Assembly: GCF_011927665.1 (NCBI RefSeq)
Contig: NZ_JAATJA010000001.1
Coordinates: 1,593,019 to 1,657,018, forward strand
DNA length: 64,000 nt
DNA from: Desulfobaculum xiamenense
GTDB taxonomy: Bacteria; Desulfobacterota; Desulfovibrionia; Desulfovibrionales; Desulfovibrionaceae
Direction of reading: 5' to 3'
Both the position numbers and the translations under genes were made by a program. Below are positions 2,871 through 49,845 of this stretch, one piece after another; within the stretch, counting starts at the first letter, position 1; each line of letters starts with the position of its first letter. Below the pieces are notes generated by a model, which saw nothing but the letters and a program-made list of their open reading frames with translations, made no database searches and was not told the origin of the DNA.

Positions 2871-3299
2871 CTAGATGTGACGAGCCAGAATGTCCTTGAT
2901 CTTCTGCTCGTTGTGCTCTTCCTCAAGGATGAGCCTGCGGGCCTGCGCCAGCGATATCTTGGAGAGCAGCAGGTCGATGTCCACGGGCTTGAGCACGAAA
3001 TCGAGAGCGCCGAGCTTCATGGCCTCCACGCCGAGTTCGATGGTGGCATGGCCGGAGAGGATGACGATCTGGACCTCGTCGTTGAGTTCCTTGATACGCC
3101 TTAGTGTCTCGATGCCGTCCATGCCCGGCATACGCAGGTCGAGGACCACGACGTCGAACACCTTGTGCTCGATTCTGTCGATGGCGTCGCCACCGCTGGT
3201 TACCGCCGTGACCGTGAGTCCGCGCAGTTGCATGCGCTCGGCCAGCGTGGTCACGAACTCCACATTGTCGTCGACGAGAAGGACTCTAGGCTGGGTCAT
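2871..3299 (-). CDS. Stand-alone response regulator receiver protein
   Basis: A 142-residue canonical CheY-like receiver: acidic pair Asp10-Asp11, phospho-acceptor Asp54 in VVLDLRMPGMDG, Ser in ILSGHAT, and Lys in LKPVD. After the domain there is only a short charged helix (about residues 118-142, EEEHNEQKIKDIL), so there is no DNA-binding output. It is closely similar along its whole length, including the tail, to the receiver at 4333-4764, and the two are evidently paralogues. It would act as a phosphate shuttle or through protein contacts. Its gene ends at a double-hairpin terminator and follows a degenerate receiver gene (3333-3698), with a 33-base gap. Confidence 0.88.
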   Translation of the reverse strand: MTQPRVLLVDDNVEFVTTLAERMQLRGLTVTAVTSGGDAIDRIEHKVFDVVVLDLRMPGMDGIETLRRIKELNDEVQIVILSGHATIELGVEAMKLGALDFVLKPVDIDLLLSKISLAQARRLILEEEHNEQKIKDILARHI

Positions 3300-4810: not shown

Positions 4811-5437
4811 TCACGCCCCGATCGAAAGCCGCAGTTCCAGTCCAACTTCGGGGCCAGTCACAAGTTCCGCATTCAACATTTCAAGCAGCGGAGCGACATC
4901 AGGCACTTCCTGCGGGACCGTCCCCGCAAAGCCGATGCGCGCGCCACGTCCGACGGCGGCAACGGACACCCGAAGTGTCGCGCCGCTCCCGGCAACGGCC
5001 GTCGCCGCGTCAAGACACGCAAACAGCGTCTGCAACAGCGCAAAGGAGCTGGTGCTCAGCTCCACCCCACTCGTCGCGTCCACATCCACGGTGACACCAC
5101 GCTGGGCAGCCAGCCGTGCGAAAAGGCCCACGGCGAGCTGCACATGCGCGTCGACATTCACCTCACACAGGAGGGTATCCACGCTGTGCGCAAAGGAATT
5201 GAGCCGCTTCACGGCCTCGTCGGCCTCGACGGTTCGCTGCTGGATGTCGGCGGCGAGCCCGGCCAACCGCGCGGGATCGACCTCCCGTCCGCGCGCCGAC
5301 ATGGCGAGCAAATCGGACAGCAGCCCGGCCTTCTCACGAATCGTCGCCAGATGATTCTTGAACTCGTGGGACGCGCTGGCAACCACCCTACCGAAGCAGG
5401 CCAGCCCGGTGTCAGAGCAACGATTCTCAGCAGACAT
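4811..5437 (-). CDS. Degenerate histidine kinase, possible ChpT-like phosphotransferase
   Basis: A 208-residue soluble protein. Residues 15-60 match a kinase dimerisation helix with a good H-box (SHEFKNHLATI, His24). The following domain has the length of an ATPase domain but has lost its boxes: the N-box Asn is gone (FACLDAATAVA) and the G-boxes are AGTVPQEVP. There is no sensor or membrane segment. An H-box on a degenerate ATPase fold is the architecture of histidine phosphotransferases such as ChpT, which pass phosphate between receivers. The gene overlaps the upstream receiver gene by 11 bases and precedes another receiver, as expected for a relay. Pseudokinase is the alternative. Confidence 0.65.
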   Translation of the reverse strand: MSAENRCSDTGLACFGRVVASASHEFKNHLATIREKAGLLSDLLAMSARGREVDPARLAGLAADIQQRTVEADEAVKRLNSFAHSVDTLLCEVNVDAHVQLAVGLFARLAAQRGVTVDVDATSGVELSTSSFALLQTLFACLDAATAVAGSGATLRVSVAAVGRGARIGFAGTVPQEVPDVAPLLEMLNAELVTGPEVGLELRLSIGA

Positions 5438-5818: not shown

Positions 5819-7525
5819 TTACTTTTTCACCGGGAACACGATGGTGAAGGCAGTGCCCTCGCCCTCCGCGCTATCCACATGCATTTCCGCACCGAGCTTC
5901 TGAACGAGTCCGTAGGTGATGGACAGGCCAAGGCCCGTCCCCTTGTCCCCCTTGGTGGAGAAGAAGGGGTCGAAGATGCGCTTCATGTGCTCGGAATTGA
6001 TGCCGCAGCCGTTGTCGGCGATGCGCACCGCCATGTGCGCCTCGTCCACGCTGGTGACCTCTATGTCCACTCTGCCGCCATCATCCACCGCCGCGAAGGC
6101 GTTGTTGATGATGTTCAGGAATATCTGCTGCAACTGCCCCCGATCGCTATCGATGGGCTTCACCTCGGGAGCGGTCCGCACGTCCACGGAAATGTTGCGG
6201 TACTGCGCCTCCTTTTCGAGGAAGCCCAGCACTTCGCGAATGATGGGTTCGAGATCCACGGTTTCGAGGCGCACGTCGATGTGCCGGGCAAAGCCGAGCA
6301 GCCTGTGCGTAATGGTGCCGCAGCGCTCCACGGACCCGAGGACGGCGTCGGCCAGTCCCACGAGGCGCTCGCGGTTGGCGGGCGTCAGATCGGGAAATGT
6401 CAGCAAATCCTTCATCAGTCCGGCCTTCTGGCTGATGACGGCAAGCGGGTTGTTTATCTCATGTGCGACGCCTGCGGCAAGGCGTCCGATGGACGCGAGC
6501 TTGTTGGCGTGTTCGGCGCGGTGCATGGCCACGGTGCGGCGCTGGTCCGCCTCCTGCACGCGGCGGACAAGGGTTGTCGCCACGCCGAGGACGACGATGA
6601 CGATGATGGTGATGCTCAAGGCCGAAAAGCCGAACATCTGCACGCGCACGGCCCACCACGGATTCATGGCCATGCGGCTCTCGTTGACCAGCGAAAGGAT
6701 GAAGGGCGAGCCTTTGATGTAGGCGTAGCCCATGAGCATGGGCGTGCCGTCCTCGGACTGGACCTGCACCACCTGCGTGGTCTCGGAATACGGGGGAACG
6801 GGATAGTGCGCCTGTTCGAGCACCGAACCGGAGCGCCGCGACGGCGTCTGGAGGAAGCCGTCGGAATTCATGATGAACACGTCGCCGCCGGGGCCAATAT
6901 TGAGGGCCAGCAGCAGATCGTTGAAGCGCTGCGTGTCGAGCGTGGCACGCAGCACGTAGAAATCACCATTGGGCTGATCGTGGCGCACCGCCACGACCAT
7001 GTGCGGAATGTCGCGGAATCCGCGAAAGACGGGGCTGATGTAGACACCACGGGCCAGCACCTGCCGGAACCAGTCCTGCCCGGAATAGTCGAGCCCCACA
7101 AGCTTGTGCGGACCGGCGTAGGCCTTCTGGATGCCGTCGGAACCGACGAAGCCGATGTCGGTGAAGCCGCCGAAGGTGGCCTTGAGGTCGCCGAGCACGG
7201 TGCCCAGACGCTCGCTATCGGCAAGCTCACCTCGAGAAAGATGGCGCACGGCGAATTCGAGGGCGGAGCGTCGCTCCTCCAGAAACGCCGCCACGGAACG
7301 GCGGCTGTTGGAGACGAGGCGCATGATGCGGTGCGAGTTCTCGGCCTTGGCCATGCTGCGGCTGATGCTGTAGTCCGTGAAGGACATGACCACCAACGGC
7401 AAAATGGAGACCACAAGCATGATCCCCACCACCATGGCCCACAGCCGTCGGTAGTTGAGAATGCCCTGATCGTCCGAGCCGCTGACCCAGAAATCCGGCT
7501 GCAATCGCTTGATCAACCTCAGCAT
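5819..7525 (-). CDS. dCache-type membrane sensor histidine kinase
   Basis: A 568-residue kinase. A membrane segment at about 29-49 is followed by a periplasmic dCache-like sensor (about 55-290, with DWF and PVFRG strands) and a second membrane segment at 297-320. There is then a dimerisation domain with His355 (AAGVAHEINNPL) and an ATPase domain with N-box (NIINNAFAAV), G1 (DNGCGI) and G2 (GTGLGLS). It autophosphorylates in response to an extracellular signal; a small-molecule ligand is typical for dCache but unidentified. It lies 75 bases after the kinase-like/BON/receiver gene and 11 bases before a receiver gene, its likely partner. All catalytic motifs are present. Confidence 0.92.
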   Translation of the reverse strand: MLRLIKRLQPDFWVSGSDDQGILNYRRLWAMVVGIMLVVSILPLVVMSFTDYSISRSMAKAENSHRIMRLVSNSRRSVAAFLEERRSALEFAVRHLSRGELADSERLGTVLGDLKATFGGFTDIGFVGSDGIQKAYAGPHKLVGLDYSGQDWFRQVLARGVYISPVFRGFRDIPHMVVAVRHDQPNGDFYVLRATLDTQRFNDLLLALNIGPGGDVFIMNSDGFLQTPSRRSGSVLEQAHYPVPPYSETTQVVQVQSEDGTPMLMGYAYIKGSPFILSLVNESRMAMNPWWAVRVQMFGFSALSITIIVIVVLGVATTLVRRVQEADQRRTVAMHRAEHANKLASIGRLAAGVAHEINNPLAVISQKAGLMKDLLTFPDLTPANRERLVGLADAVLGSVERCGTITHRLLGFARHIDVRLETVDLEPIIREVLGFLEKEAQYRNISVDVRTAPEVKPIDSDRGQLQQIFLNIINNAFAAVDDGGRVDIEVTSVDEAHMAVRIADNGCGINSEHMKRIFDPFFSTKGDKGTGLGLSITYGLVQKLGAEMHVDSAEGEGTAFTIVFPVKK

Positions 7526-7600: not shown

Positions 7601-8809
7601 CTAGGACGCACGCACCTTGTCGTACGCGCTCTTCACCGTGGAGGACAGCACGTCGATGTCCACGGGCTTCTGCAGGTAGGCGAAGGCGCCAAGGGCCATG
7701 CAGGTTTCGCGATCCCTGTCGGAGCCATGTCCGGTCAGGATGATGACCGCGACATTGGGATGGTCGCGCCGCACGCGGCGTAGCACCTCGATGCCGTCCA
7801 TGCCGGGCATCTTGAGGTCGAGGATCATGACTTCCGGCTCCTCCTCCTGCAGGAGGTCCAGAGCCTGCTTGCCGTCGTACACCACTGCGGAACCCACGTC
7901 GCGCATGGTGAGGCGCTCCGAGAGGGTCTCGACGAACTCGCGCTCGTCATCGACCAGAAGCACCTTGCTCGGCAGGCTGAAGTCGGCCCGGCGGTAGATG
8001 TCCGCCTGATAAAAGTCCTTGCCCACACGGGTCACCACGTCCCGCACGCCCTTGACCGGCGACACGAGGCGCTTGAGTTCCTCTTCAAGGCGGGACAGCA
8101 TGATCACGTTCTTATTGATGGTGAGTGAGACGACGCCATTCTTGGCCTCGACGCCCACACTGTGCCCTTCCTCGGCCAGCGCCAGTTCGACGCGCGCCGC
8201 GAGGGCGAAGTCCGTCACCGCCTGCGAGGACTGCGCCGTGGGCACCAGCACCGCGCGGCGAGCGTTGTCCACGATGAATTCCGCGGCCTGCTCCACGCTC
8301 TTCTTTCCCATGGGAACGACGACGTCGTAGAGGCTCTCGTCCCACGGATTTCCGCCGCAGACGTACTCCGTCCACGTGTACAGCGATTCGTCGGCCTTGT
8401 GAACAAGTCGCATGGCCTCCTCGGCATTGACGCCCTCTGTCGCGGTGGCCACGGACGCCCGGAAAGGCAGGTCCGCCGCAAGAAGCGCCCGCAGGAGGTG
8501 CGATATGGTGCGGGGAATGAGCAGCCCCGTCCAGCCGAAGAGCAGCAGGTCATCGCGGCGCAACTGTTCGGCCAGCGTGGCGCGCATGCAGGCCACGCTG
8601 CGCTCGCGTTCGTGGGTAAAGGAGTTGAACACGCTGGGCTTGCCGAAAAGCGTCCGGTGCAGGCGGGATTCGGCGATGCCGAAGCGCTCGGATGTGGCGG
8701 AGAGGATCTCCGCGTCACGCACCGCCGCAAGGCCCAACTCGGCGGCCACGAGGGCGGCGACCTCTTCGGACTTCACGTATGCCGCATTGAAGATGTCGAT
8801 CACAGCCAT
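7601..8809 (-). CDS. Cytidylate-kinase-like / BON / receiver fusion protein
   Basis: A 402-residue three-part protein. Residues 1-185 resemble the cytidylate-kinase-like family, but the glycine-rich P-loop is missing (FNAAYVKSEEVAALV), so nucleotide phosphorylation is doubtful. Residues about 198-262 look like a BON domain (NGVVSLT then GVRDVVTRV), usually a membrane- or ligand-associating module. Residues 282-400 are a canonical receiver with Asp331 (LDLKMPGMDG), Thr in ILTGHGS and Lys in LQKPVD. The gene starts 15 bases after the SulP transporter gene and precedes the sensor kinase. It may couple kinase phosphorylation to the transporter (inference). The BON call rests on pattern, not a search. 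Confidence 0.75.
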   Translation of the reverse strand: MAVIDIFNAAYVKSEEVAALVAAELGLAAVRDAEILSATSERFGIAESRLHRTLFGKPSVFNSFTHERERSVACMRATLAEQLRRDDLLLFGWTGLLIPRTISHLLRALLAADLPFRASVATATEGVNAEEAMRLVHKADESLYTWTEYVCGGNPWDESLYDVVVPMGKKSVEQAAEFIVDNARRAVLVPTAQSSQAVTDFALAARVELALAEEGHSVGVEAKNGVVSLTINKNVIMLSRLEEELKRLVSPVKGVRDVVTRVGKDFYQADIYRRADFSLPSKVLLVDDEREFVETLSERLTMRDVGSAVVYDGKQALDLLQEEEPEVMILDLKMPGMDGIEVLRRVRRDHPNVAVIILTGHGSDRDRETCMALGAFAYLQKPVDIDVLSSTVKSAYDKVRAS

Positions 8810-8824
8810 GATGGGTCTCCTTTG

Positions 8825-10954
8825 CTAGTTGACCGGACAGGCCACGGTCAGGGGGCAATCCTTTTCAGCGGTCCCCTCGTGCGCCTTGGCATGAATGACG
8901 GGCAGGGCATCGGCCTGGGTGGCGTAGATGTTCTCCGCGCCGATGGACTCGTAAAGGTGCGTGCGCTTCATGACGGCCTGCACCTTCTCGTTCACGCCGG
9001 AGAAGGACACGCCGTAGCCGGCGCTGCGCAGGCGCTTGACGATGAGCGACAGCGCTTCCTCGCCGGAGGCGTCCATATCGGCGATGCCGTTGGCGACCAC
9101 GTGGATGTGGCGCAGGTTCGGCTTGGTCTGGAGGATGTCCGTGATGCGGTCCTCAAGGTAGCTCGCATTGGCGAAGAACAGGGTGCCGTCGAAGCGGACC
9201 ACCGCCACATGCTCGCACTCGCGCAGACCATGCACGGAGCAGTCGCGAAGCGCCTTGTCCGCAGACATGGACAGGCTGGCCACGGTGGGGCGCATGCTCT
9301 TGTAGAGGAACACGCCGAGCGAAAGCACCACGCCAACCATGATGCCCTTGTCCAGATGGGGGGCAAAGGCCAGCGTACACATGAAGGACAGAATGGAGAT
9401 GGCGCCGTCGTACCACTGAGCCTTCCACGCGTGGACGAAGCCCTTCACGTTGAGCAGGCCGATGACTGCCATCATGATGACCGCCGCCAGCACGGACTGC
9501 GGCAGATGGTACAGAAGCGGCGTGAAGAACATGAGCACGATGACCACGACCAGCGAAGTGAACACGCTGGAGAGGCCCGTGGCCGCGCCGGAGGCGAGGT
9601 TGACCGCCGAGCGCGAGAAGGAGCCGGAGACCGGATAGCTCTTGCCAATGGCACCGAGCATATTGGCCAGTCCCTGACCGATGAGTTCCTGATTCGGGTC
9701 GAGGCGCTGGCCGGTCTTGGCGGCCATGGCCTTGGCGATGGAGATGGCTTCCATGAAGCCCAAAAGCGAAATGATGGCCGCAAAGGGCAGAAGCTGGAGC
9801 ATCGCGCCGAGATCGAGATGCGGCACGGTGAGCGTGGGCAGGCCGCTCGGCACGGTGCCGACAACCGCTCCGCCGCCCATCATGGACAGGGCCTCGGTGT
9901 CGACGACCTTGTTGCCGATCTTCAGACGCCACACGCGGCCGTCGGCCTGTTCGGGATTCGGGGCCGTTCCGGCGAGATAGAAGGCCAGTCCGCCGTCCTC
10001 GGCCACGCCGTCGAACTTCATGCCGCGCAGCTTGGTGCGCCACAGGTGCGCCTTGCGCTTGAGGTCCTCTATGCGAATGTTGGTGACCTCAATGTCATGC
10101 TTGAGGTCGAGGGCGACGATGGAGTGCATACCCTGCGTCTCGACAGCATGGGCGTAGCGGGTGTTCAGATCCGTACGTGCCTCGCCGAGCTTGGGAATGG
10201 TGCTGGTGACCTCATTGAAGGCCACCACGGCTTCCACTGCCTCGGGTGAGCGGATGGCGTTGATGTCGGCCTTGGTGTTGTGCTCGAAGCCAAGCCCCCA
10301 CGACAGAAGAGTGGTAACCACGACGGCCACAAGCACGTTTGGTGCCTTGGGTGCCATGCGCTTAAGGCCGATCATGATGACGAACGCCAAAACGCCCATG
10401 GCCAGTGTGGGCCAGTGGGTGTAATCCACGGCGGCCTGAACCACGCGGATGATGGTCTCGTAGTGGTGATCGGCCTTGTCCACGTACACGCCGAACAGCT
10501 TCGAAAGCTGGCTCGACGCGATGATGATGGCCGCGGCGTTGGTGAAGCCGTTGACCACCGGATGCGAAAGAAAATTCACCACAAGCCCGAGGCGCAGCGC
10601 GCCAAGCAGGAACTGGAAGAGGCCAACGCTGAAGGCGAGCAGGACCGCGTAGGCGATGAAGGCCTCGCTGCCCGCGGTAGCCAAAGGTTCCAACGAGGCA
10701 GCCGTCATCAGCGAGACCACGGCCACGGGGCCGGTGGCGAGCTGGCGGCTCGAACCGAACAGCGCCGCAACCAGCGGCGGCAGGAACGACGCGTAGAGAC
10801 CATAGTACGCGGGCAGCCCGGCAAGCTGCGCGTAGGCCATGGACTGCGGGATGAGAACCAGCGCCACCGTGAGGCCGGACGTGAGATCGGCCCTCAACTG
10901 CTGCGCTCCATATCCCTTGATCCAGGACAGGAACGGAAAGATTCGGGTCAGCAT
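8825..10954 (-). CDS. SulP-family anion transporter with STAS domain
   Basis: A roughly 709-residue inner-membrane transporter of the SLC26/SulP family. It has the N-terminal signature (SGLTVALVLIPQSMAYAQLAG), multiple membrane segments and a C-terminal STAS domain (about 575-680, with DMDASGEEAL at the phospho-site loop). Family members carry sulfate, bicarbonate or other anions; specificity is not readable. Odd feature: a soluble, charged insertion of about 135 residues (roughly 228-365) between membrane segments. ATG 10954 with GGAAGG upstream is the likely start; an in-frame GTG lies at 10960. It overlaps the end of the TetR gene, so the two are coupled. Its placement among signalling genes suggests transport tied to sensing. 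Confidence 0.88.
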   Translation of the reverse strand: MLTRIFPFLSWIKGYGAQQLRADLTSGLTVALVLIPQSMAYAQLAGLPAYYGLYASFLPPLVAALFGSSRQLATGPVAVVSLMTAASLEPLATAGSEAFIAYAVLLAFSVGLFQFLLGALRLGLVVNFLSHPVVNGFTNAAAIIIASSQLSKLFGVYVDKADHHYETIIRVVQAAVDYTHWPTLAMGVLAFVIMIGLKRMAPKAPNVLVAVVVTTLLSWGLGFEHNTKADINAIRSPEAVEAVVAFNEVTSTIPKLGEARTDLNTRYAHAVETQGMHSIVALDLKHDIEVTNIRIEDLKRKAHLWRTKLRGMKFDGVAEDGGLAFYLAGTAPNPEQADGRVWRLKIGNKVVDTEALSMMGGGAVVGTVPSGLPTLTVPHLDLGAMLQLLPFAAIISLLGFMEAISIAKAMAAKTGQRLDPNQELIGQGLANMLGAIGKSYPVSGSFSRSAVNLASGAATGLSSVFTSLVVVIVLMFFTPLLYHLPQSVLAAVIMMAVIGLLNVKGFVHAWKAQWYDGAISILSFMCTLAFAPHLDKGIMVGVVLSLGVFLYKSMRPTVASLSMSADKALRDCSVHGLRECEHVAVVRFDGTLFFANASYLEDRITDILQTKPNLRHIHVVANGIADMDASGEEALSLIVKRLRSAGYGVSFSGVNEKVQAVMKRTHLYESIGAENIYATQADALPVIHAKAHEGTAEKDCPLTVACPVN

Positions 10955-11553
10955 GAACACCCTTCCATCGGTTGTGGTTTCAGCATGTTTTCGCAGGAAA
11001 TCATAACATCACCATACAGCGAACGCACCGGAAACAGGTTGAGCATCTTAAAGCGCAACAGGCCGCAGATCATGGAGAACAGGATCAGGGCCTCCCGCTG
11101 CGCGGACACGTTCTGGCGGATGGAACCGTCGCGCACTCCCTTGCGCAGGGCGTCCACCAGAATATCCACGAAACAGTTGTAGATCGCTTCGACATCCTGC
11201 CGCAGACCGGGGTTCGTGCCCGCAAGATGATAGAGATGGGAGCGGAAAAGGAGTCTGAACTCCACGTGCATCTCCTCGGAGAGACGGAAGAACAGGGCGA
11301 CAAGCTCCAGCACGGTCTCCAGCCCGCTACGATCCTCCTTGGCGGCCACCCCGTCCTCGACCCGTCCGACGATGGCATTCTTCACCTCTTCGAGAACACT
11401 GATGTAAATCTGTTCCTTGTTCTTGAAGTGGTGGAAGATCGTGCCTTCAGCCGCACCGGTGAGCCGGGACAACTCCGCTATGGACGTATCCTTGTAGCCT
11501 TTGGCTGCAAACAGTTCCGCGGCCGTCTCCAGTATCTTGCGCTTGTACGACAT
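10948..11553 (-). CDS. TetR/AcrR-family transcriptional regulator
   Basis: A 201-residue regulator with an N-terminal helix-turn-helix (about 4-50: ILETAAELFAAKGY, then TGAAEGTIFHHFKNKEQIY) and a C-terminal ligand-binding helical domain. ATG 11553 is preceded by GTAGGAGA, which decides the start over upstream in-frame codons. Two palindromes immediately upstream (11566-11602) sit between a TTGACA element (11635-11640) and the gene, the arrangement of an autorepressor. It is the first gene of the SulP/phosphorelay operon, so ligand binding would derepress the whole unit. The inducer is unknown. Confidence 0.9.
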   Translation of the reverse strand: MSYKRKILETAAELFAAKGYKDTSIAELSRLTGAAEGTIFHHFKNKEQIYISVLEEVKNAIVGRVEDGVAAKEDRSGLETVLELVALFFRLSEEMHVEFRLLFRSHLYHLAGTNPGLRQDVEAIYNCFVDILVDALRKGVRDGSIRQNVSAQREALILFSMICGLLRFKMLNLFPVRSLYGDVMISCENMLKPQPMEGCSC

Positions 11554-11565
11554 GCATTCTCCTAC

Positions 11566-11602
11566 CCGAGTGCTCACTCGGTTTTCCCGAGTATCCACTC
11601 GG
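11566..11602. promoter_or_regulatory. Tandem palindromic operators for the TetR regulator
   Basis: CCGAGTGCTCACTCGG (11566-11581) is a perfect palindrome with 7-bp arms. CCGAGTATCCACTCGG (11587-11602) is the same site with one arm mismatch. Centres are 21 bp apart, two helical turns, so two dimers would bind the same DNA face. They lie just upstream of the TetR start and downstream of a TTGACA -35 (minus strand, 11635-11640). Confidence 0.85.
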
Positions 11603-38610: not shown

Positions 38611-39213
38611 TCACGTCACAAGATAGAAGAGCGGGAACAGGTAAATCCACACCAGATCCACCAGATGCCAGTACAGCCCGGCATTCTCCAACGTCACGAA
38701 GCGGTCCCGGTGCACACGCCCCGCCGCCACCAGCCCCATCACCCACGCGATGACGCACATGCCGATGACCACGTGTAGCCCGTGCAGGCCGGTCATGGCG
38801 TAGTACATCGCGTAGAACGCGGCCTGCCCCTTTTCCATCTCCAGCATGTGCTCCGAGCCAGGGTAAATGCCGTGCTGGAACTTGGCGCTCCACTCGAAGA
38901 ACTTGTTGATCAGGAACACGCCCGCCAGCCCCACCGTCGCGCCGAGTAGCGCCAGCGTCCGGCGACGCTCGCCACGTTGCACAGCCGTCACCGCAAGGGC
39001 CATGGTCAGACTGCTGGTGATGAGCACCACCGTGTTCGCGCTGCCAAAGGGAACGCTGAGCGTCGCGCTTCCGGCGTGGAACCCGGCCGGATAGCGCGAA
39101 AGGTGCACGGCGAACAGCACGAAGAGCCCGCCGAAAAGCAGTATCTCGGTGAACAGGAACAGCCACATGCCCATCTTCGCGCCTATGTAGTCAGGCTGCA
39201 CCTCATGCGTCAT
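38611..39213 (-). CDS. coxC: Cytochrome c oxidase subunit III
   Basis: A 200-residue membrane protein with five hydrophobic segments and family motifs: the N-terminal WLFLFTEILLFGGLF, FYAMYYAMTGLHGLHV, and the C-terminal YWHLVDLVWIYLFPLFYL. ATG 39213 overlaps the subunit I stop by 11 bases. The five-helix, 200-residue form is the short version common in bacteria. Confidence 0.93.
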   Translation of the reverse strand: MTHEVQPDYIGAKMGMWLFLFTEILLFGGLFVLFAVHLSRYPAGFHAGSATLSVPFGSANTVVLITSSLTMALAVTAVQRGERRRTLALLGATVGLAGVFLINKFFEWSAKFQHGIYPGSEHMLEMEKGQAAFYAMYYAMTGLHGLHVVIGMCVIAWVMGLVAAGRVHRDRFVTLENAGLYWHLVDLVWIYLFPLFYLVT

Positions 39214-40828
39214 CGAGGCGCACCTCCGCGAACTCGTAGGGCCCGGCCGTGACCACAGGCTCCCGCGCGAAATTGTGATGCGGCGGCGGGGAGGACAGGG
39301 TCCACTCCAGCGTGGCCGCGCCCCACGGATTGGCTCCCACGCGCTGACCAGCGCGGAGCCCGCGCCACAGATTCCAGAACATCAGCGCAAGCCCGACGGC
39401 CACAATCCACGAGCCAACGGTGGAGACGACATGCATGTCCGTGTACTGGGGCAGGTAATCGTAATAGCGCCGGGGCATGCCCTGAAGCCCGAGGATGAGC
39501 ATGGGAAAATACAGCACGTTCAGTCCCACGGCGAGGATGAGCGCGCTCGCGTTCGCCCTGCGGCGGTCGTACATCCTGCCGAATATCTTGGGGAACCAGT
39601 AGTGCATGGCCCCGAACAGCCCGAAGCCCGTGCCGCCGAAGATCACGTAATGGAAATGCCCCACCACGAAATACGTGTCGTGCACGTGGACGTCCGTGCC
39701 CGCGCTGCCGAGGACCAGCCCGGTCAGCCCGCCCACGCAGAACAGAAACACGAAGCACAGCGCGAAGGTCAACGGTGGTTCGAGACGAATGGCTCCCTTG
39801 TAGAGCGTCGCCACCCAGTTGAAGACCTTCACCGCCGAAGGAATGGCCACCACGAAGGTCAAAAGCGAAAAGACGAGCACCGCCGTGTCACTCATGCCGC
39901 TGGTGAACATGTGATGCGCCCACACCAGCGATCCCGCAAAGGCGATGGCGAGGCTCGACGCGGCGATGGTTCCATACCCGAAGATGCGCTTTCGCGAGAA
40001 GACGGGAATGATCTCGGAAACCACGCCCATGGCGGGAAGAATCATGATGTACACCGCCGGGTGCGAGTAGATCCAAAACAGGTGCTGGTAGAGGATGGGA
40101 TCGCCCCCGCGCGCGGGATCGAAAATGCCCATGCCGAGCACCCGCTCCGCCACGATGAGGAGCGCCGTAATGCCGAGGATGGGCGTGGCCAGCACCTGTA
40201 TCCACGCCGTGGCGTAGAGCGTCCACACGAAGAGCGGCAGCCGCCCCCAGCCCATGCCCGGCGCGCGCAGGCGGTGGATGGTCACGATGAAGTTGAGTCC
40301 GGTAAGGATGGACGAGAACCCGAGGATGAACACCGCCGTCACGGCCAGCCCCACGTTGGTGGTGGTCACGGCGGAGAACGGCACGTAGAAGGTCCAGCCG
40401 GTGTCCGGCGGGCCGTCGCCGGTGAACAGCGCGCTCACGGCGATGCACGCCCCGATGACGTAGAGCCACCACGAAAAGTTGTTGAGACGCGGAAAGGCCA
40501 CGTCCTCGGCACCGATGTGCAGCGGCAGGATGATATTGCCGAATGCGGCGGGAATGCTCGGGATGACCACAAGGAAGATCATGACCACCCCGTGCAGGGT
40601 GAACACGGCGTTATAGGTCTGCGCGCCCATGATCGTCTCGCCCGGAGCGATGAGCTCCAGCCGGATTGCCAGCCCGAGGAGCACCCCCACCACGAACATG
40701 ACGAGGATGCACGTCAGATAGAGCAGCCCGATGCGCTTGTGGTCCGTCGAGAACAACCACGCCCGCACGTGCCCCGCCCCCGCCACCGGCCCGAGGAAGC
40801 CGTTTCCCGCAGCCCCGGAATCAGCCAT
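39203..40828 (-). CDS. coxA: Cytochrome c oxidase subunit I
   Basis: A 541-residue catalytic subunit with twelve or more helices. It has the low-spin heme His in VFTLHGVVMIF, the crosslinked His-Tyr pair in HPAVYIMILP, CuB histidines in WAHHMF, and the heme a3 region VHDTYFVVGHFHYV. It reduces oxygen to water at the membrane with proton pumping. GGGGGAA lies before ATG 40828, which overlaps the end of the sco gene. The first 29 codons of the longer frame are sco shadow. Confidence 0.95.
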   Translation of the reverse strand: MADSGAAGNGFLGPVAGAGHVRAWLFSTDHKRIGLLYLTCILVMFVVGVLLGLAIRLELIAPGETIMGAQTYNAVFTLHGVVMIFLVVIPSIPAAFGNIILPLHIGAEDVAFPRLNNFSWWLYVIGACIAVSALFTGDGPPDTGWTFYVPFSAVTTTNVGLAVTAVFILGFSSILTGLNFIVTIHRLRAPGMGWGRLPLFVWTLYATAWIQVLATPILGITALLIVAERVLGMGIFDPARGGDPILYQHLFWIYSHPAVYIMILPAMGVVSEIIPVFSRKRIFGYGTIAASSLAIAFAGSLVWAHHMFTSGMSDTAVLVFSLLTFVVAIPSAVKVFNWVATLYKGAIRLEPPLTFALCFVFLFCVGGLTGLVLGSAGTDVHVHDTYFVVGHFHYVIFGGTGFGLFGAMHYWFPKIFGRMYDRRRANASALILAVGLNVLYFPMLILGLQGMPRRYYDYLPQYTDMHVVSTVGSWIVAVGLALMFWNLWRGLRAGQRVGANPWGAATLEWTLSSPPPHHNFAREPVVTAGPYEFAEVRLDDA

Positions 40829-41792
40829 CGCGTTCCCCCTTGCCGCGTGTCCTGCGCCCGGCCAGCATGAGCACGATGAACAGCACCAGCGCGAGGCCGA
40901 GGATGGACCCGCCAACCACGCGCATCGTGTCGAACACGTAGCGCCGCCCCTGCGGATCGTAGTCGAAGCAATAGGACAGAAGGCGCTTCACGGACAGGCC
41001 CACCCGCCCCTGCGCGGCCTCGGTGGCGGCCATGGTCACATCGAAGGGCAGGAAGTCCGTGCCGTAGAGATAGCGTACGATCTTCCCGTCCGGCGCCACG
41101 GCCACAGCCACGGCCGGATGCACGAAGGCGTCGCCCCGGCGCGCGAAGCCGAAGCCGATGGCGTCCATGGCGCGGTCGATGGTCGCCTTGTCGCCGGTGA
41201 GAAACAGCCAGTGTTCCGGCGGGAATCCCCCGCGCAGCGCGGCCATGTAGTTGCGTTTGCTGGCGGCGGCCACGGCCGGGGTATCCAGTTCGTCGAAACT
41301 CACGGCGATGACGCGCAGCTCGCGTCCGGCATCGAGCGGCACCTCGGGCAGAATCCGCGCGAAGGACGAAAGCATCAGATTGCACACGCTCGGACAGGTG
41401 AAGTACACAGGCAGGATGATGCTCGGAACGCTCGCCGCCGCGCGCAGATCCACGGCATCGCCATCCGAGTCGGTGAAGGTCAACCCCTCGGGTAGATACG
41501 CGCCCAGATGCTCGTCAACGCCCACGTCCATCTCGGGAGTGGGTGCCGCGTCGCTAGCGGATGTCGCCAGCTCGCGCATCATGGCCTCGTGGTCGTGACC
41601 GGGCGGGACCTTCGCGGCTTCGTGCCCATGCTCGGCCGGAGCATGCGCATCCCCATGTTCCGCGTGGTGCATGCCTGCGGATTCGACGGGCTGCGGCACC
41701 GCCCCATCGCCGGCGGCGGCAGGCCATCCGCCCCACGCGACGCAGCACAGCCACAGCGCGAGGCATAGCGCCCACGCCCGTAGCCAACGCAT
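40821..41792 (-). CDS. sco: SCO1/SenC copper chaperone for the oxidase CuA site
   Basis: A 323-residue protein. An N-terminal signal/anchor (about 5-25) is followed by a His-rich stretch (about 40-75, MHHAEHGDAHA and GHEAA) that could bind copper. Then comes a thioredoxin-like SCO domain with FTCPSVCNLM (CxxxC) and a later conserved His (FVHPAVA), and a C-terminal membrane helix (about 290-312). The C-terminal anchor after the SCO domain is less usual. Its start overlaps the cytochrome c553 stop by one base (TGATG), so the two are coupled. It delivers copper to subunit II. Confidence 0.9.
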   Translation of the reverse strand: MRWLRAWALCLALWLCCVAWGGWPAAAGDGAVPQPVESAGMHHAEHGDAHAPAEHGHEAAKVPPGHDHEAMMRELATSASDAAPTPEMDVGVDEHLGAYLPEGLTFTDSDGDAVDLRAAASVPSIILPVYFTCPSVCNLMLSSFARILPEVPLDAGRELRVIAVSFDELDTPAVAAASKRNYMAALRGGFPPEHWLFLTGDKATIDRAMDAIGFGFARRGDAFVHPAVAVAVAPDGKIVRYLYGTDFLPFDVTMAATEAAQGRVGLSVKRLLSYCFDYDPQGRRYVFDTMRVVGGSILGLALVLFIVLMLAGRRTRGKGERDG

Positions 41793-42282: not shown

Positions 42283-44424
42283 TCAGGCGTTGGCCTCGTC
42301 GCGAAGCTCCTGAATGAGGGTGGCCAGACCGGCGGTCTGCTGGGTCATCTCGCGCAGGGCGTCAACGGTCTCGTCGATGCTGCGCGCGGTGTCCAACGTG
42401 ATGCGGTTGACCTCCTCGATGGAGCGATTGATCTCGTCGCTGGCGGCGGACTGCTGGGCCGCAGCGGTCGCGATGCCCTGAATCTGGCTGGCGGCCGCCT
42501 CGGTGCCGGTGACGATGGTGCCGAGCATCTCGCCGGAGCGGTTGGCGTATTCCACCGCGCCCTGAAGATCCTTGGCGGCGCGCTCCATGGACGTGATGTT
42601 GCTCTCCGCCACCTTCTGGATGGCCACGATGGACGAGCCGACTTCCTTGGTGGCGTTCATGGTCTTCTCGGCCAGCTTGCGCACCTCGTCGGCGACCACG
42701 GCAAAGCCGCGTCCGGCGTCGCCAGCGCGGGCGGCCTCGATGGCGGCGTTCAGCGCCAGCAGGTTCGTCTGATCCGCGATGTCGTCGATGACGTTCATGA
42801 TGCTGCCGATGGCGCGGGCCTGCTCGTCGAGCTGCTCCATGGCCACACGCAGTTCATCGGTGTGCTTCTGAGTGGTGCCCATGGCGTCGATGGACTTGCC
42901 GACCACCTCGCGCCCGTCGCGGGCGCTGGTCATGGCCGATGCGCCCTGATTGGCGGCGTGCCCGGCGTTCTGGGCCACTTCGAGCACCGTGGCGTTCATC
43001 TCCTCCATGGCCGTAGCCGTGGCGGTGATGCGATCCTTCTGCACGTCGGTGCCACGCCGGATTTCCTCGGACTGAGCGGAGATTTCCTCCATGGCCGTGG
43101 AGATGCGCTCCACCACCACGCCGAGCTTGTCGGCGGCCTGCATAAGGCCCTCGGAACGCGCCCGGTCGGCGCGGCGTCCGGCCTCTTCGGCCTCGGCCAT
43201 GGCCTTCTCGGCCTGTGCGGTCTTCTCCCGCGCCACGCTGACCTGATTCTCGATCTCGGCGATATTCTTGCGCAGGTGCTCCACCATGACGTTCACGGCG
43301 ACCTGCATGTCGGCCACTTCGTCGTGGCCGTGCACGTCGAGCTTCACGTCGAGGTCGCCCTCGGCGATGCGGTTAACCGCAGAGGCCGTGTCTTGAATCG
43401 GGCGGGCCAGACGGCCCACAAGGAACCACAGCACGATCATGGCCAGCACGAGGCAGCCGCCGCCAATGAGCGCCGTCTGCAGGGCCATGGCGTTGACCGG
43501 GGCGAAGATGAGATTCTCATCCACAGCGAGGGACACGGCCCAGGAGGTTCCGCCCTCGCCAAGGGGCACGGGAACGGCAATGTTCAACTTGCCGTCGCGG
43601 AAGAAATGCATGCTCTCGCCGCGAGACATGGCTCTCATGATCTTGTGGGCATCAGGCTCCACGTCGTCAAAGGGCTTGCCGATGGCATCCGGATGATCGG
43701 TACGCCCGATCATGACGCCGCTGTGGCTCACGATGACAACGTCGGCACGGGTGCCGAACAGGGTGACGGAGTCGGCCAGCTTCTGGAGAAAGTCTGCGGC
43801 AAGGTCCACACCGACAACGCCGATGGACCGGCCATTGAGGCGCACGGGCGAGGTCAGCGACACAAGGGTCACCGTCTCGCCGTTGAGCTTGTAGGTGACG
43901 GGGTCGAGCACGGCCTCGCGGCCAGAGTCGCGCGCGTCGGTATACCACTTGCCCGCGTCGATATCGACGGTGATGACCTGGAAATGCATGCCGCCCACGC
44001 GGTTCCAGTACGGCACGAAGCGGCCGTCGGGGCGGTTGCCCTCGATGGCGGCGAACTCGGCGTCGCGGCCGTCAAAGGCATTGGGCTCCCAGCCGGACCA
44101 CACGCCGAGCACATTCTCGTTCTGGGCGGACAGCTCATACTGCATGGCCATGATCTGGCTGCGCTCGGGCGTGCCCGAGGTGTCCTTCTTGTAGCCCTCG
44201 AAGGTATTGGCCGTGCTGCGCGCGATGGTCAGGCCCTGATTGATGCGCGAACGAATCTTATCGGCCTCGATGGTTGCCCGTGCGGAGGCCTCCTGGACGG
44301 CCATCTCGAGGGCTTCCTCGCGCGCCGAATAGGTCGAGCAGGCGATGACGACCATAAGCGTCGCCACAAGGCACATACCCGTGAAAAACAGAGTCTTCGT
44401 CTTGATCGAACGAAACGCTAACAC
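42283..44424 (-). CDS. Methyl-accepting chemotaxis protein, dCache type
   Basis: A 713-residue chemoreceptor. A membrane helix (about 10-30), a periplasmic dCache-like ligand domain (about 35-310, with [21 protein letters not shown] and WYTDAR), and a second helix (about 316-337) lead to a HAMP segment (338-395), a coiled coil and the signalling domain with the conserved hairpin ([22 protein letters not shown] split across 549-570). The ligand is unknown. The start is GTG 44424, with AGGAGG 6 bases upstream. It is collinear without net gaps with the gene at 45023-47164, and their signalling halves are nearly identical even in DNA. Confidence 0.93.
42292..43280. repeat. Direct repeat A of the chemoreceptor signalling region
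   Basis: About 990 bases nearly identical to 45032-46020 with a constant offset of 2740 and no gaps; many synonymous positions also agree. It encodes the HAMP-distal and signalling parts of the receptor. Confidence 0.85.
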
Positions 44425-45022
44425 GAAATCCTCCTGAAAATGGAAATGACACTTTCCGACGGTTGCGCTTCACGCACTCGTCGCGCAGGGCGCATGTCCG
44501 CTCAGCGGAGCAGCGGCCCTGCATGGTGATGATCTCTCGCACTCCAGCCAATCCGGCACTGTCACGCAGCGCCCGCACTGCCGCACGAGCTTGCGTGCCG
44601 GAACGTCCTGCGCACCGCTCACCCATCCCGTCGGTCAGCTTGTCTACATCAAAAATAGTGGACGCAGAGATTTGCCATGCATCAATGCGCCATGCAACCA
44701 CATTTTTACATATTGGTATAAACTGACATATCACTAAAATCCAAAAACTGATATTCTGAACACGATCACTCTCCATAACTTACTGAAATCAAAAAGTGTA
44801 TCCACTAAACTTTTTAGGCCCGAAGCAGCATATTTTCATAATCGCGATCAGACGACACAGTGTAGCCGACAGGACGAGCGATACATCGCGACCAACGCAG
44901 AAACTCCCCGCGTGGCAACTCATTGCGATCCACGACAAAGCACACCGACCGTCGGCCAGAAGCCATAAAAAAGGCTCCACAGCCATAGCTGTGGAGCCTT
45001 TTCATGAATTCCTCGCACTCTT
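44425..45022. other. Intergenic region, partly AT-rich
   Basis: The part from about 44640 to 44860 is clearly richer in A and T than its surroundings and should hold the promoter of the first chemoreceptor gene. The terminator at 44965-45002 belongs to the second. I see no gene and no convincing sigma-28 site. Confidence 0.55.
44965..45002 (-). terminator. Terminator of the second chemoreceptor gene
   Basis: A perfect 15-bp stem (44969-44983 with 44988-45002), 4-base loop, then a T-run on the minus strand. Confidence 0.92.
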
Positions 45023-47164
45023 TTACATTTCGGCCTCGTCGCGAAGCTCCTGAATGAGTGTGGCCAGACCGGCGGTCTGCTGGGTCATCTCGCGCAGGGC
45101 GTCAACGGTCTCCTCGATGCTGCGCGCAGTGTCCAGCGTGATACGATTGACCTCCTCGATGGAGCGGTTGATCTCGTCGCTGGCGGCGGACTGCTGGGCC
45201 GCAGCGGTGGCGATGCCCTGAATCTGGCTGGCGGCCGCCTCGGTGCCGGTGACGATGGTCCCAAGCATCTCACCGGAGCGGTTGGCGTATTCCACCGCGC
45301 CCTGAAGATCCTTGGTGGCACGCTCCATGGACGTGATGTTGCTCTCGGCCACCTTCTGGATGGCCACGATGGACGAGCCGACTTCCTTGGTGGCGTTCAT
45401 GGTCTTCTCGGCCAGCTTGCGCACCTCGTCGGCGACCACGGCGAAGCCGCGCCCGGCGTCGCCCGCGCGAGCGGCCTCGATGGCGGCGTTGAGCGCCAGC
45501 AGGTTCGTCTGGTCCGCAATGTCGTCGATGACGTTCATGATGCTGCCGATGGCACGGGCCTGCTCGTCGAGCTGCTCCATGGCCTTGTGCAATTCGTCGG
45601 TGTGCTTCTGGGTGGTACCCATTGCCTCGATGGACTTGCCGACCACCTCGCGCCCGTCACGGGCGCTGGTCATGGCGGATGCGCCCTGATTGGCGGCATC
45701 CCCTGCATTCTGGGCCACCTCCAGCACCGTGGCGTTCATCTCCTCCATGGCCGTGGCCGTAGAGGCGATACGGTCCTTCTGCACATCGGTACCGCGTCGA
45801 ATTTCCTCGGACTGGGCGGAGATTTCCTCCATGGCCGTGGAAATGCGTTCCACCACCACCCCGAGCCTGTCGGCGGCCTGCAAAAGGCCCTCAGAGCGCG
45901 CCCGGTCGGCGCGACGTCCGGCCTCTTCGGCCTCGACCATGGCCGCCTCGGCCTGTGCTGTCTTCTCCCGCGCCACGCGAACCTGATTCTCGATCTCGGT
46001 GATATTCTTGCGCAGGTGCTCCACCATGACATTCACGGCAGCCTGCATGTTGGACACCTCATCGTCCCCGCGCACGTCGAGCTTCACGTCGAGGTCGCCG
46101 TCGGCAATGCGTTTGACGGCCACGGCGGTATCCTGAATGGGGCGCACAAGGCGACCGGAGAGAAACCACAGCACAATCATGGCCAGCGCGAGGCAGCCGC
46201 CACCGATGAGCGCCGTCTGCACAGCCATGGCATTGGCGCGGTCGAAGATGATGTCCTCGTCCACTTCAAGGGCCAGTCCCCAGATGGTTCCGCTCTTTCC
46301 GAACGACACAGGCACGGCGATATGCAGCTGACCGTTGCGGGAAAAATGACGTTCCTCACCGCGCGACATGGCTTTCATAATCATTCGCGCCTCGGGCTCC
46401 GCATCGGCGTACGGCTTGCCGATGGCGTCGGGCCGATCGGTATGGGCCAGCATGACGCCACTGCCGCTGACAAGGGTCACCTCCGCACGCACCCCGAACA
46501 GGGTGACTGAGTCGGCCAATTCCTCAAGGAAATCGCCCGTCACATCCACGCCGACCACACCTACGGACCGCCCGTCCACGCGAATGGGTGCGGCCAGCGA
46601 AACCACCGTCACCCGCTGACCGCTCATGTCGTACACGATGGGATCGAGCACGGTCTCGCGGCCGCTATCGCGGGGATTCGTGTACCATGCGCCGGAGTCG
46701 AGGTCGGCCTTGATGTCCTGGAAATGCATGCCACCCACGCGGTTCCAGTAGGGCACGAAACGGCCGTCAGCCTTGCAGCCCGGCGCGGAGCGGAACTCGT
46801 CGTCACGCCCGTCAAAGGCATTGGGCTCCCAGCCGGACCACACGCCCAGAACGGCCTCGTTCAGCGAGGCGATCTCGTACTGCATGGAGATGATCTGACT
46901 GCGCTCGGCCGCGCCAGCGGTGTCCTTCCTGTACCCTGCCAGCATCTGTGCCGTGCTACGAGCGATGGTCAAGCCCGTATCGATGCGCTCACGGATGCGG
47001 GATGCCTCCATCCGCGCCTGCGCGGTGGCCTCGCGCAGGGCATTTTCCTGTGCGGCCTCACGGGCCAAATACGTCGAGCAGGCCAATACCGTCATGAGCG
47101 ACGCAACAAGGCACAGCCCCGCAAAGAACATAGTCTTCGTTCTGATCGAATGAAAAGCGAACAC
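45023..47164 (-). CDS. Methyl-accepting chemotaxis protein, dCache type
   Basis: A 713-residue chemoreceptor, the same length as its downstream neighbour and collinear with it along the whole gene. Its periplasmic domain keeps the same signatures ([24 protein letters not shown]) but differs at many positions, so the ligand may differ. HAMP, coiled coil and signalling hairpin are almost identical to the first copy. The start is GTG 47164, preceded by GGGGAGGAAA; the frame is open to 47284, but that part is not conserved. It has its own terminator, so it is transcribed separately. Confidence 0.93.
45032..46020. repeat. Direct repeat B of the chemoreceptor signalling region
   Basis: Partner of 42292-43280, offset 2740 and gap-free. 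The periplasmic halves further along are much less alike, which suggests recent duplication or gene conversion confined to the signalling part. Confidence 0.85.
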
Positions 47165-47564
47165 GGTTTCCTCCCCGAATGTCAGATGAGGGACTCGCCC
47201 AAAACACGTGGCACACCCCATCCTTGATGCTTTTCCAGACTGCCGGGTCTGCGTACGACAGAGATGTCGCCCAATGCGACACACTCACCGCGAGTCGCGC
47301 CATGTCCGACGCCGCCCCGATGCGGACCACGCGTCCATCGCCACAGCGACAGAACGCCCGGACACCGCGCCGCATCTACGTCCGTACGCACAAGGCGTCA
47401 CGAAACAAGGCAAAACGCATGTCCACCGCACGCAACGCCCCGCCATTATGGAGCAACATTCGCGCCACACAGCTCGCTCCATCCGCGCTTCTTTCGACCA
47501 TGCAACAAAAAGCCCCCGCGATGCGTCCATCGCGAGGGCCTTGCCAAGACAGTGGCTAGGCGGC
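47165..47564. other. Intergenic region
   Basis: Holds the promoter zone of the second chemoreceptor gene and the terminator of the third (47506-47539). I recognise nothing else. Confidence 0.5.
47506..47539 (-). terminator. Terminator of the third chemoreceptor gene
   Basis: A 12-position stem with one mismatch (47512-47523 with 47528-47539), 4-base loop, followed on the minus strand by a T-run. Confidence 0.8.
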
Positions 47565-49712
47565 CTACATTTCCGCCTCGTCCCGAAGTTCCTGAATGAG
47601 CGCCGACAGGTCGCTGGCCTGCTGCGCCAACTCACGCAGTGCCTCGGTGGACTCCTCCACGCTACGGGCAGTGTCCATGGCGATGCGGTTGATCTCGTCG
47701 ATGGAGTGGTTGATCTCCTCACTGGCGGCCGACTGCTCCTCTGCCGCGGTGGCGATGCCCTGAATCTGCCCGGCAGACGACTCCGTGCCCACCACGATGG
47801 CCTTGAGCGCCTCACCGGAACGATTGGCGAGGTCCACGGCATCGTCGAGGTCCTTAACCGCCAGTTCCATGGACGACACGTTGCTGTCCGCCACCTGCTG
47901 GATGGCCTTGATGGAATCCCCGACCTCCTTGGTGGCGGTCATGGTCTTCTCGGCGAGCTTTCGCACCTCGTCGGCGACGACAGCGAAACCACGCCCGGCG
48001 TCGCCCGCGCGGGCGGCCTCGATGGCAGCGTTCAGCGCCAACAGATTCGTCTGGTCCGCGATGTCGTCGATGACGGTCATGATATGCCCAATGGCCTTGG
48101 CCTTCTCGTCGAGCTGGGCCATGTTGTCGCGCAATTGCTGGGCCTGACGCTGGGTGGTGGTCATGGCCTTGATGGAACGCTCCACGACATCCGCGCCCTC
48201 CTGCGCCTTGTCCCGCGCGTCGGACCCCTGCTCGGCGGCGTTGCCCGCGTTCTGCGCCACCTCAAGCACCGTGGCGTTCATCTCCTCCATGGCCGTGGCC
48301 GTCGAGGAAATGCGCTCGCGCTGCACCTCGGTGCCCTTGCGGATCTCGTCCGACTGCGCGGAAATCTCCTCCGTGGCGGTGGAGATACGCTCGACCACGC
48401 TGGCGAGCTTTTCCGCCGCCTGCAACATGCCCTCCGCCCGCGCGCGCTCGGCCCGCGCCTTGGCCTGCTCGGCCTCGGCCATGGCGCTTTCGGCCTGCGC
48501 GGTCTTCTCTTGCGCCAGCATGACCTGACTCTCGATCTCGGCGATGTTCTCGCGCAGCTTTCCGGCCATGACGTTGACCGCACCCTGCATCACTGCCACC
48601 TCGTCACGCCCGCGCGGGGCAAGGCGCACATCGAGATTTCCCTCGGCGATGCCGTTGACCGCGTGGGCCGTCTCCCGGATGGGACGGGCCAGCACGCCCG
48701 CGACGAACCACAACACGATCAGCGCGCCCACGACGCACGCCCCGCCGATAAGCGTGGAGCGCATGGCCATGGCGTTGGCGACCGAATAGATGACGCCCTC
48801 GCGAATGGACATGCTCACGGCCCAGTAGGTCCCGCTGGCCCCGAAAGTCATGGGAACGACGATGCGCAGCCGCCCGTCCGCGAAGTCATGGAACGGCTTG
48901 CCGCCCTCGATGCGCCGCATCACGTCGTCGGCGTCGGCGAAGACCTCGGAGAGCGCCTTGCCCGCCTGTTCCGGCTTCCCCGTATGGGCGGCGATGGTCG
49001 CGGCATGGCTCACGAGAACCACGTCGGCCTTTTCGCCGAAGAGTTCGATGGAATCGGCAAGCGTCTGAAGGAAATCCACGGCGAGGTCCACCCCGGCCAC
49101 GGCGATAGACGTGCCGTCCACGCGCACCGGCACCGCAAGGCTGACCACCATGACCGTCTTGCCGCCAATCTCGTAGGCGAACGGCTCCAGCACCGTTTCA
49201 CGCCCGGAGTTGAGCGGGCGGAAGTACCACGATCCGGCCTGCGGGTCCTCGTAGGTGGAGCACGGCTCCAGATGCAGCCCGCCCACCTTGTTCCAGTAGG
49301 GGACGAACCGTCCGGTCTGATCGTGCCCCTCGTCGTACTTCACGTGCTCCGCGTCGCGCCCATCCAACGCGTTCGACTCCCACACCGTCCACGTTCCGAG
49401 GAGATCGTCGTTGCCGTCGGCCACGGTACGCAGAATGCCGTTGAGCACATCGCGCGACGGCTCCGTCCACTCCTCCTTGATGCCAAGGAAGGTTTGCGAA
49501 AGGCCCCGCGCGGCGTCGAGGCCGACCTCGAACCGGCTGCGCACCTTGAGCGACTCGATGGTGGCCTGATTGGTGGCCTCACCCAGCGCAGTACGCAAGG
49601 CCTCGGTCCGCGACGACGTCGTCGAATACGCGATGACCGCGAGAATGGTCACCACCAGACACAACCCTGACGAGAAGACGATCTTCCCCTTGATGGAACG
49701 AAACGAGTACAC
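47565..49712 (-). CDS. Methyl-accepting chemotaxis protein, dCache type
   Basis: A 715-residue chemoreceptor, the most diverged of the three tandem copies. It has an N-terminal helix, a dCache-like domain ([25 protein letters not shown]), a second helix, HAMP and a signalling domain with the [20 protein letters not shown] hairpin. The HAMP-distal region is Ala/Glu-rich coiled coil ([16 protein letters not shown]). The start is GTG 49712, with AAGGAGGA upstream. Sharing GTG starts, the FRSIK-type N-terminus and the ligand-domain signature, it belongs to the same duplication series. Confidence 0.93.
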
Positions 49713-49845
49713 TGCGTCCTCCTTGCCCCTCGGCATCCGCCGCCCAAAATCCCCGCATCACTCGGCCGGACCGACACTTTCCCACCATGGTAGCATGCCC
49801 GCCACGCCGTGTCTTCCCCGGAGCGACGCCCTGCGCGACAGCCGC

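Follow-up and report, generated by a model that had tools for sequence, protein, structure and literature searches.

Sulfate respiration starts with the uptake of sulfate, a step whose regulation is little known. A sulP cluster of Desulfobacteraceae that combines the transporter gene with a TetR-type regulator, two-component systems and Cache sensor kinases was described in 2025 (PMC11887813). In its main text, a 16-bp palindromic TetR operator is reported for the sulP clusters, the regulators are called WalR type with promoter output, and control of transporter formation is proposed. As for the transporters, the main text of Marietou 2018 (PMC5840216) places SulP proteins of about 710 aa that carry an insert in group Ci, the putative sulfate transporters of sulfate reducers. 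The words ‘cytidylate’ and ‘BON’ do not occur in the main text of PMC11887813, nor do ‘two-component’, ‘response regulator’ and ‘histidine kinase’ in that of PMC5840216. Literature searches, made partly by title and the start of the abstract, returned no relevant description of the protein architecture that is the subject of this work.

A soluble protein, SbtB, is thought to tune the anion carrier SbtA; it has the PII fold and binds nucleotides. The protein described here is proposed to be a soluble tuner of anion carriers as well, whereas SbtB has neither a receiver nor a kinase fold.

The window, a stretch of 64,000 nucleotides from Desulfobaculum xiamenense, contains an operon (Table 1) in which a Cytidylate_kin2-like (CK2) domain, a BON-like domain and a receiver (REC) are fused in one protein, CK2-BON-REC. 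As far as the main text of PMC11887813 describes it, the published sulP cluster has SulP, TetR with a 16-bp palindromic operator and Cache kinases in common with the window operon. In size and insert, the window SulP also agrees with group Ci as outlined in the main text of PMC5840216. Desulfonema magnum is among the strains of PMC11887813, and the genome of D. magnum 4be13 (locus L066) carries an operon of the window type; the cluster presented in that main text is possibly another one. In contrast to the WalR-type regulators named there, the two stand-alone receivers of L066, like its fused protein, are without a DNA-binding domain by Pfam.

Table 1. Features of the CK2-BON-REC operon, in positions of the window
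Feature	Position	Strand	Basis
CK2-BON-REC ORF, 402 aa	7601..8809	-	ORF and translation, Pfam PF13189 and PF00072, AF2 model
Cytidylate_kin2-like domain, residues 1-189	8243..8809	-	PF13189 and fold alignment
Site of lost P-loop, residues 8-16 (NAAYVKSEE)	8762..8788	-	translation
Motif of residues 59-70 (SVFNSFTHERER), conserved across the fused family	8600..8635	-	alignment and pLDDT
BON-like domain, residues 192-265	8015..8236	-	hhalign against BON domains with controls, secondary structure, weak Pfam matches in 3/15 relatives
Receiver domain, residues 281-402, phospho-acceptor D331	7604..7969	-	PF00072, conserved key residues, 1zy2_B
SulP-STAS permease, 711 aa	8825..10960	-	PF00916 in two stretches (long insert)
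TetR-type repressor, first operon gene	10948..11553	-	PF00440 E 3.4e-14; translation
Two 16-bp palindromes CCGAGTNNNNACTCGG, candidate TetR operators	11566-11581, 11587-11602	.	scan against shuffles
Sensor histidine kinase with Cache-like sensor	5819..7525	-	HisKA, HATPase_c, dCache_1
Stand-alone receiver, 126 aa	5427..5807	-	PF00072 only
Histidine phosphotransfer-like protein, 208 aa	4811..5437	-	DHp with shortened CA fold, HATPase_c not matched
Stand-alone receiver, about 143 aa	4333..4764	-	PF00072; ORF opens at 4845, start by eye
Stand-alone receiver, 142 aa, possible further operon member	2871..3299	-	PF00072
Degenerate receiver, 121 aa	3333..3698	-	PF00072 23.5 bits, below cut-off 30.2

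The CK2-BON-REC gene starts with ATG, 7 bases ahead of which lies AAAGGAG, and follows the SulP stop after a gap of 15 bases. Pfam recognises PF13189 over residues 4-167 (E 1.1e-15, profile positions 2-174 of 176), and the match passes the curated cut-off (58.7 bits against 28). An AlphaFold2 model, for which an alignment of 59 relatives was the input, has a mean pLDDT of 89.4 and a pTM of 0.77. When the CK2 part of this model (residues 1-189) was compared with known structures by VIA-align, it fitted 3hdt_A with Z 21.6 (rmsd 1.9, 164 aligned) and 3fdi_A with Z 21.0 (rmsd 1.7, 159 aligned). The 50 matches listed by Foldseek for the full model were receivers, so that the CK2 match comes from this second comparison; among its listed matches, the CK2 and receiver parts are aligned and the BON part does not appear. 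A profile of CK2-BON relatives likewise finds 3hdt (E 9.2e-10) and 3fdi (E 8.4e-9), whose titles read putative kinase and uncharacterized protein. The CK2 fold is thus shared with the Cytidylate_kin2 family and these two structures, from which the window protein differs in its missing P-loop and its attached BON and receiver domains. Its own genome holds three PF13189 matches, namely CK2-BON-REC, a stand-alone CK2-BON paralogue (132 bits) that adjoins, by eye, a seryl-tRNA synthetase gene, and an ordinary Cmk. Genuine Cmk was also tried as a relative of the CK2 part, and the profile comparison gave no match (0.7% for the fused and 0.9% for the stand-alone form). As only 7 of 20 Cmk sequences have the start motif, we do not map residues of the CK2 part onto Cmk.

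At residues 8-16, where the own-genome stand-alone paralogue reads RGTYSRGKD, the P-loop of the window protein is lost, and the secondary structure of the model at this site is a short loop of residues 9-13. The loss extends to the whole fused family: G....GK occurs in the first 26 residues of 0 of 122 distinct fused proteins, with length and a DD at the expected place as the marks of a fused protein and 18 exact duplicates removed. L189, which is fused but has DK and falls outside this set, is also without GxxxxGK. The stand-alone CK2-BON proteins of Desulfobacterota (e.g. L001 and L040-L042) have the same CK2 part (hhalign 100%) and a BON-like tail; unlike the fused form, they are without a receiver, and part of them keep GxxxxGK. 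This motif is retained in 11/25 of them in a smaller set and 31/71 in a larger one, where both totals contain L053, a fused gene cut by a contig end, and the 31 contain one out-of-register match, L272.

In the 31 stand-alone relatives chosen for GxxxxGK, R8 and G14 are present in 31 each and K15 in 30, against 11 (G14) and 7 (K15) of 116 aligned fused proteins. Arginine is absent from the five commonest residues of the R8 column in 81 aligned sequences, and column 32 has D in 98/116 fused proteins versus R in the GxxxxGK stand-alones. R143 is kept in 37/116, and R144 and K145 are mostly gone. Since G14, K15 and R32 are largely lost, and R144 and K145 mostly so, phosphate binding looks weakened, and the CK2 part is, judging from its residues, probably catalytically dead. 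On the other hand, G92, H104, R117, D140, W146 and D162 are retained in most fused and stand-alone forms. The fused family has, in addition, a conserved motif of its own, with S59 in 108, F61 in 113, N62 in 107, F64 in 113, H66 in 97 and E67 in 109 of 116 sequences. The model is less confident here (pLDDT blocks of 75 and 70), and S59-E67 could be an interface.

The BON-like domain is recognised at the profile level. Pfam BON (PF04972) gives no match at E<=1 in the window protein, and the best of the weak matches in the aligned relatives has an E of 0.015. When the profile of residues 190-275 was aligned by hhalign with BON domains (a reference of 22 domains from related genomes, all above the Pfam cut-off, out of 30 fetched), the probability was 91.8% with a single-pair E of 7e-7. 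The controls stayed low: the reversed profile gave 7.8%, none of eight column shuffles exceeded 1.2%, and neither the CK2 nor the receiver part exceeded 1.0%. The model has the BON order of helix-strand-strand-helix-strand (H192-213, E219-223, E226-231, H238-249, E257-262), and the glycines G215, G225 and G263 of this region are strongly conserved.

The receiver is intact. PF00072 covers residues 283-392 (E 6.3e-29), residues 280-402 of the model align with receivers (1zy2_B, Z 22.6), and among the aligned fused proteins, the window protein included, D287, D331, T/S359 and K381 are present in 116/116 and D288 in 115/116. The sequence-only reading had proposed this order of domains, with limits (1-185 and 195-265) close to those modelled, next to a transporter, which is the SulP-STAS permease. 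Its cytidylate-kinase-like domain agrees with a strong Pfam match and its BON-like segment with the profile-profile comparison, though not with Pfam; the glycine-rich loop that it called gone is absent, by sequence, from the window protein and from the fused family.

The genes around CK2-BON-REC resemble a phosphorelay. In the sensor kinase, dCache_1 scores 44.0 bits, slightly below the cut-off of 45. Like the ChpT/Spo0B-type phosphotransferases, the phosphotransfer-like protein has a DHp in which the histidine is conserved, and its CA fold is shortened. Its residues H24, N28, A31, D42 and H84 are invariant in 48 aligned sequences, and its AF2 model has a pLDDT of 93.4 and a pTM of 0.88. Pfam finds only a weak HisKA match (E 0.066), and HATPase_c is absent by Pfam from this protein and its L066 counterpart. 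The PDB matches listed for the model by two programs, 50 per program, are histidine-kinase cores, with ChpT and Spo0B not among them. In the window operon, Pfam finds no DNA-binding domain in the fused protein or in the stand-alone receivers. Further along, the degenerate receiver has, by eye, Ala at the phospho-acceptor position and is a pseudo-receiver; a second weak receiver lies past the operon core at 2317-2658 on the minus strand (28.5 bits, cut-off 30.2).

The sole DNA-binding protein seen in the operon is TetR, the ORF of which opens at 11598 with a likely ATG, judged by eye, at 11553. The CCGAGTNNNNACTCGG palindromes start 21 bp apart, immediately upstream of this likely start. A scan for CCGAGTNNNNACTCGG found 2 matches at <=1 mismatch where 0.23 were expected, and 3 of 100 shuffles reached 2; the palindromes are likely TetR operators. 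Promoter and terminator scans gave sites no more numerous than in shuffles.

The sequence-only reading had called the architecture uncommon. Instead, the CK2-BON-REC fusion is one branch of a family that is widespread in Desulfobacterota, and it is usually bound to an operon. Full-length homologues occur in at least 17 of 59 genomes searched, the own genome included, with at least 19 proteins. In a phylum sample, 151/297 genomes match CK2-BON, in fused or stand-alone form, at E<=1e-10. In contigs of one genome per species, 142 relatives were found, and the 80 best were retained; these are mostly ‘Desulfo-’ or Deltaproteobacteria by title, with single others such as Nitrospira japonica. The fused protein is present in each of the 80 loci (cut by the contig end in L053). 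Where the flank suffices, SulP lies directly upstream in 71/73 and TetR upstream in 52/59, and the downstream side has a homologue of the Cache kinase in 67/71, the phosphotransfer-like protein in 57/60 and a receiver in 59/59. The complete operon set is present in 42/50 of these nearest loci with enough flank, 9/18 order-level loci and 2/17 phylum loci, the last chosen by hand among the matches listed. As the 80 loci are those nearest to the query, this sample favours SulP.

Beyond the nearest relatives, the partner changes. Fused proteins lie within 5 kb, on the same strand, of SulP, DASS/CitMHS, TauE or NhaB in 106 of 115 cases (each BLAST run had a few carriers as queries, and other carriers would be missed); a further six end at contig edges and three are unpaired, namely L158 (CitMHS on the other strand), L186 and L189. 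Pfam assigns these carriers to different families. Beside the fused protein stands a CitMHS/DASS carrier with TrkA_C in L033, L034, L036 and L038, a TauE carrier in L033, L183 and L185, and NhaB, a Na+/H+ antiporter, in one case (L039). A Na_sulph_symp carrier is next to it in L187 and L188 and 5.8 kb off in L189. In L183 and L185, a cassette of the order TetR-CKBR-HK-RR-HKlike-RR is followed by TauE, and SulP was not found within the 19 kb fetched. A PPDK_N/PEP-utilizer protein was also seen to recur beside TauE carriers (L033:10335-12992, L183 and L185).

Carriers are likewise found within 5 kb, on the same strand, of stand-alone forms, in 9/31 of those with GxxxxGK (20 not, 2 at an edge) and 22/40 of those without it (L053 among the 22; 14 not, 4 at an edge). 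Pairing is therefore not confined to the fused form. In a quick tree of 115 rows, the fused rows fall on one side of a single branch (37 rows with L053) with an SH-aLRT of 100, no bootstrap being run. Two architecture changes are needed on this tree, and the partner changes at least six times on the 32 labelled rows, L189 among them being labelled by hand. It was also considered that catalysis was lost because the protein became a transporter adaptor. The tree shows no link beyond shared descent between loss of the P-loop and pairing with a transporter (median p 1); seven pairs on starred branches had, on average, 0.4 going the same way, 1.4 the other way and 5.2 without difference. As the two are not independently linked, this idea is unproven.

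The insert of SulP was considered as a possible docking site. SulPs with a split PF00916 lie beside a fused protein in 10/20 cases and unsplit ones in 0/28, where rows below 170 bits and second halves of split matches were excluded; the other 10 of the 20 inserted SulPs are without an adjoining fused protein. This contrast is largely that of one orthologous operon, so that the insert is at most a candidate docking site.

A sister lineage has CK2-BON followed by a C-terminal part with, by eye, two hydrophobic stretches; 7 of its 9 rows are near TauE and 2 are at contig edges. CK2-BON proteins of about 500 aa with a C-terminal part of this kind were seen in L154-L157 and L159-L162, most of them beside TauE, receivers and a kinase, and are probably a membrane-anchored version. 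In another group (L164, L165, L173, L257-L261 and L264), the operon of an anion carrier, DASS/CitMHS, has nearby a tandem pair of stand-alone CK2-BON proteins, and a receiver and a histidine kinase are often present too. GxxxxGK is missing from the second copy in 9/9 of these pairs and from the first in 5/9, which looks like a dead copy working together with a more intact one.

We propose, with a probability of roughly 0.45, that CK2-BON-REC is a pseudokinase adaptor, switched by a phosphorelay, through which anion uptake is adjusted at the protein level. From sequence, model and neighbourhood we infer all steps of the signalling, which way the control acts and that the protein touches the transporter. 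The protein would be a response regulator with a dead nucleotide-kinase fold and a BON domain as its output. What the Cache histidine kinase would sense in the periplasm is probably sulfate or an anion akin to it; the receiver of CK2-BON-REC could then obtain its phosphate through the stand-alone receivers and the phosphotransfer-like protein. Phosphorylation may alter the docking of CK2-BON on the anion transporter of the neighbouring gene, or on a partner shared by such transporters. The altered docking would tune uptake fast, without DNA binding, while transcription would be set separately by TetR. The re-pairing with different carriers suggests that CK2-BON-REC follows the transported anion or a common signal and not one carrier fold. 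A dead kinase acting as signalling output beside a transporter, as the sequence-only reading had it, is also the best-supported reading here, with ‘dead’ judged from the residues. A wider version, in which an adaptor fused once to a receiver has moved among SulP, DASS/SLC13 and TauE/SafE and directly gates the import of sulfate and related anions in sulfate reducers, is more tentative; if true, the first step of sulfate respiration would have a general control module that acts post-translationally.

The neighbourhood fits transcriptional or metabolic roles equally well, and this was counted against the adaptor. So were the pairing with NhaB, a Na+/H+ antiporter, the lower share of complete operon sets beyond the nearest loci and the inserted SulPs that lack a fused neighbour. 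Direct docking is taken as the likeliest, followed by nucleotide sensing and then by anti-repression of TetR. In the second of these, the dead fold would bind a nucleotide, namely AMP, CMP or APS, the product of sulfate activation, and the receiver would gate what it reports on energy or sulfate. The six retained residues (G92, H104, R117, D140, W146 and D162) and the R143 of some fused proteins speak for such a sensor, and a link between APS levels and sulfate uptake is speculated upon in section 14 of PMC11887813, in the context of CBS proteins. The phosphate binding, which looks weakened, speaks against it, and we regard it as unlikely. In the third, phosphorylated CK2-BON-REC would bind TetR and free the tandem operators, so that the output would be transcriptional. 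The frequent TetR upstream, the two operator-like palindromes and the 16-bp operator of the published clusters are all consistent with it, but BLAST finds no TetR within 6.5 kb, on the same strand, of the DASS-paired fused proteins L033 (5712), L034, L036 and L038, and we regard it as improbable.

The several stand-alone receivers and the phosphotransfer-like protein within one operon would also suit a phosphate sink or relay node in which the receiver alone matters and CK2-BON is a scaffold; a passive scaffold need not show the strong conservation of S59, F61, N62, F64, H66 and E67 together with G215, G225 and G263, and this role is given still less weight. As for a still active enzyme, a kinase or transferase that would work without a P-loop in some unrecognised way, new conserved residues (D32, C12, N62, H66 and E67) do replace the lost ones, yet the P-loop glycine and lysine of its relatives are lost and we know of no P-loop-less enzyme of the CK2 fold, so that it is hardly credible.

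The preferred reading, that of an adaptor switched by a phosphorelay, gives some functional context to a family that is annotated only as cytidylate kinase-like, one branch of which appears to have been turned, in Desulfobacterota, into pseudoenzymes beside transporters. A conserved phosphorelay output that lacks a DNA-binding domain and is tied to several different anion carriers is a testable candidate for the fast control of uptake.

Two other regions of the window, both on the minus strand, were noted by eye. Three large similar ORFs (713, 753 and 723 aa) lie in a row at 42283-49736 and look like chemoreceptor paralogues. Those at 38611-40915 look like subunits III and I of a cytochrome oxidase, which one would not expect in the host if it respires sulfate.
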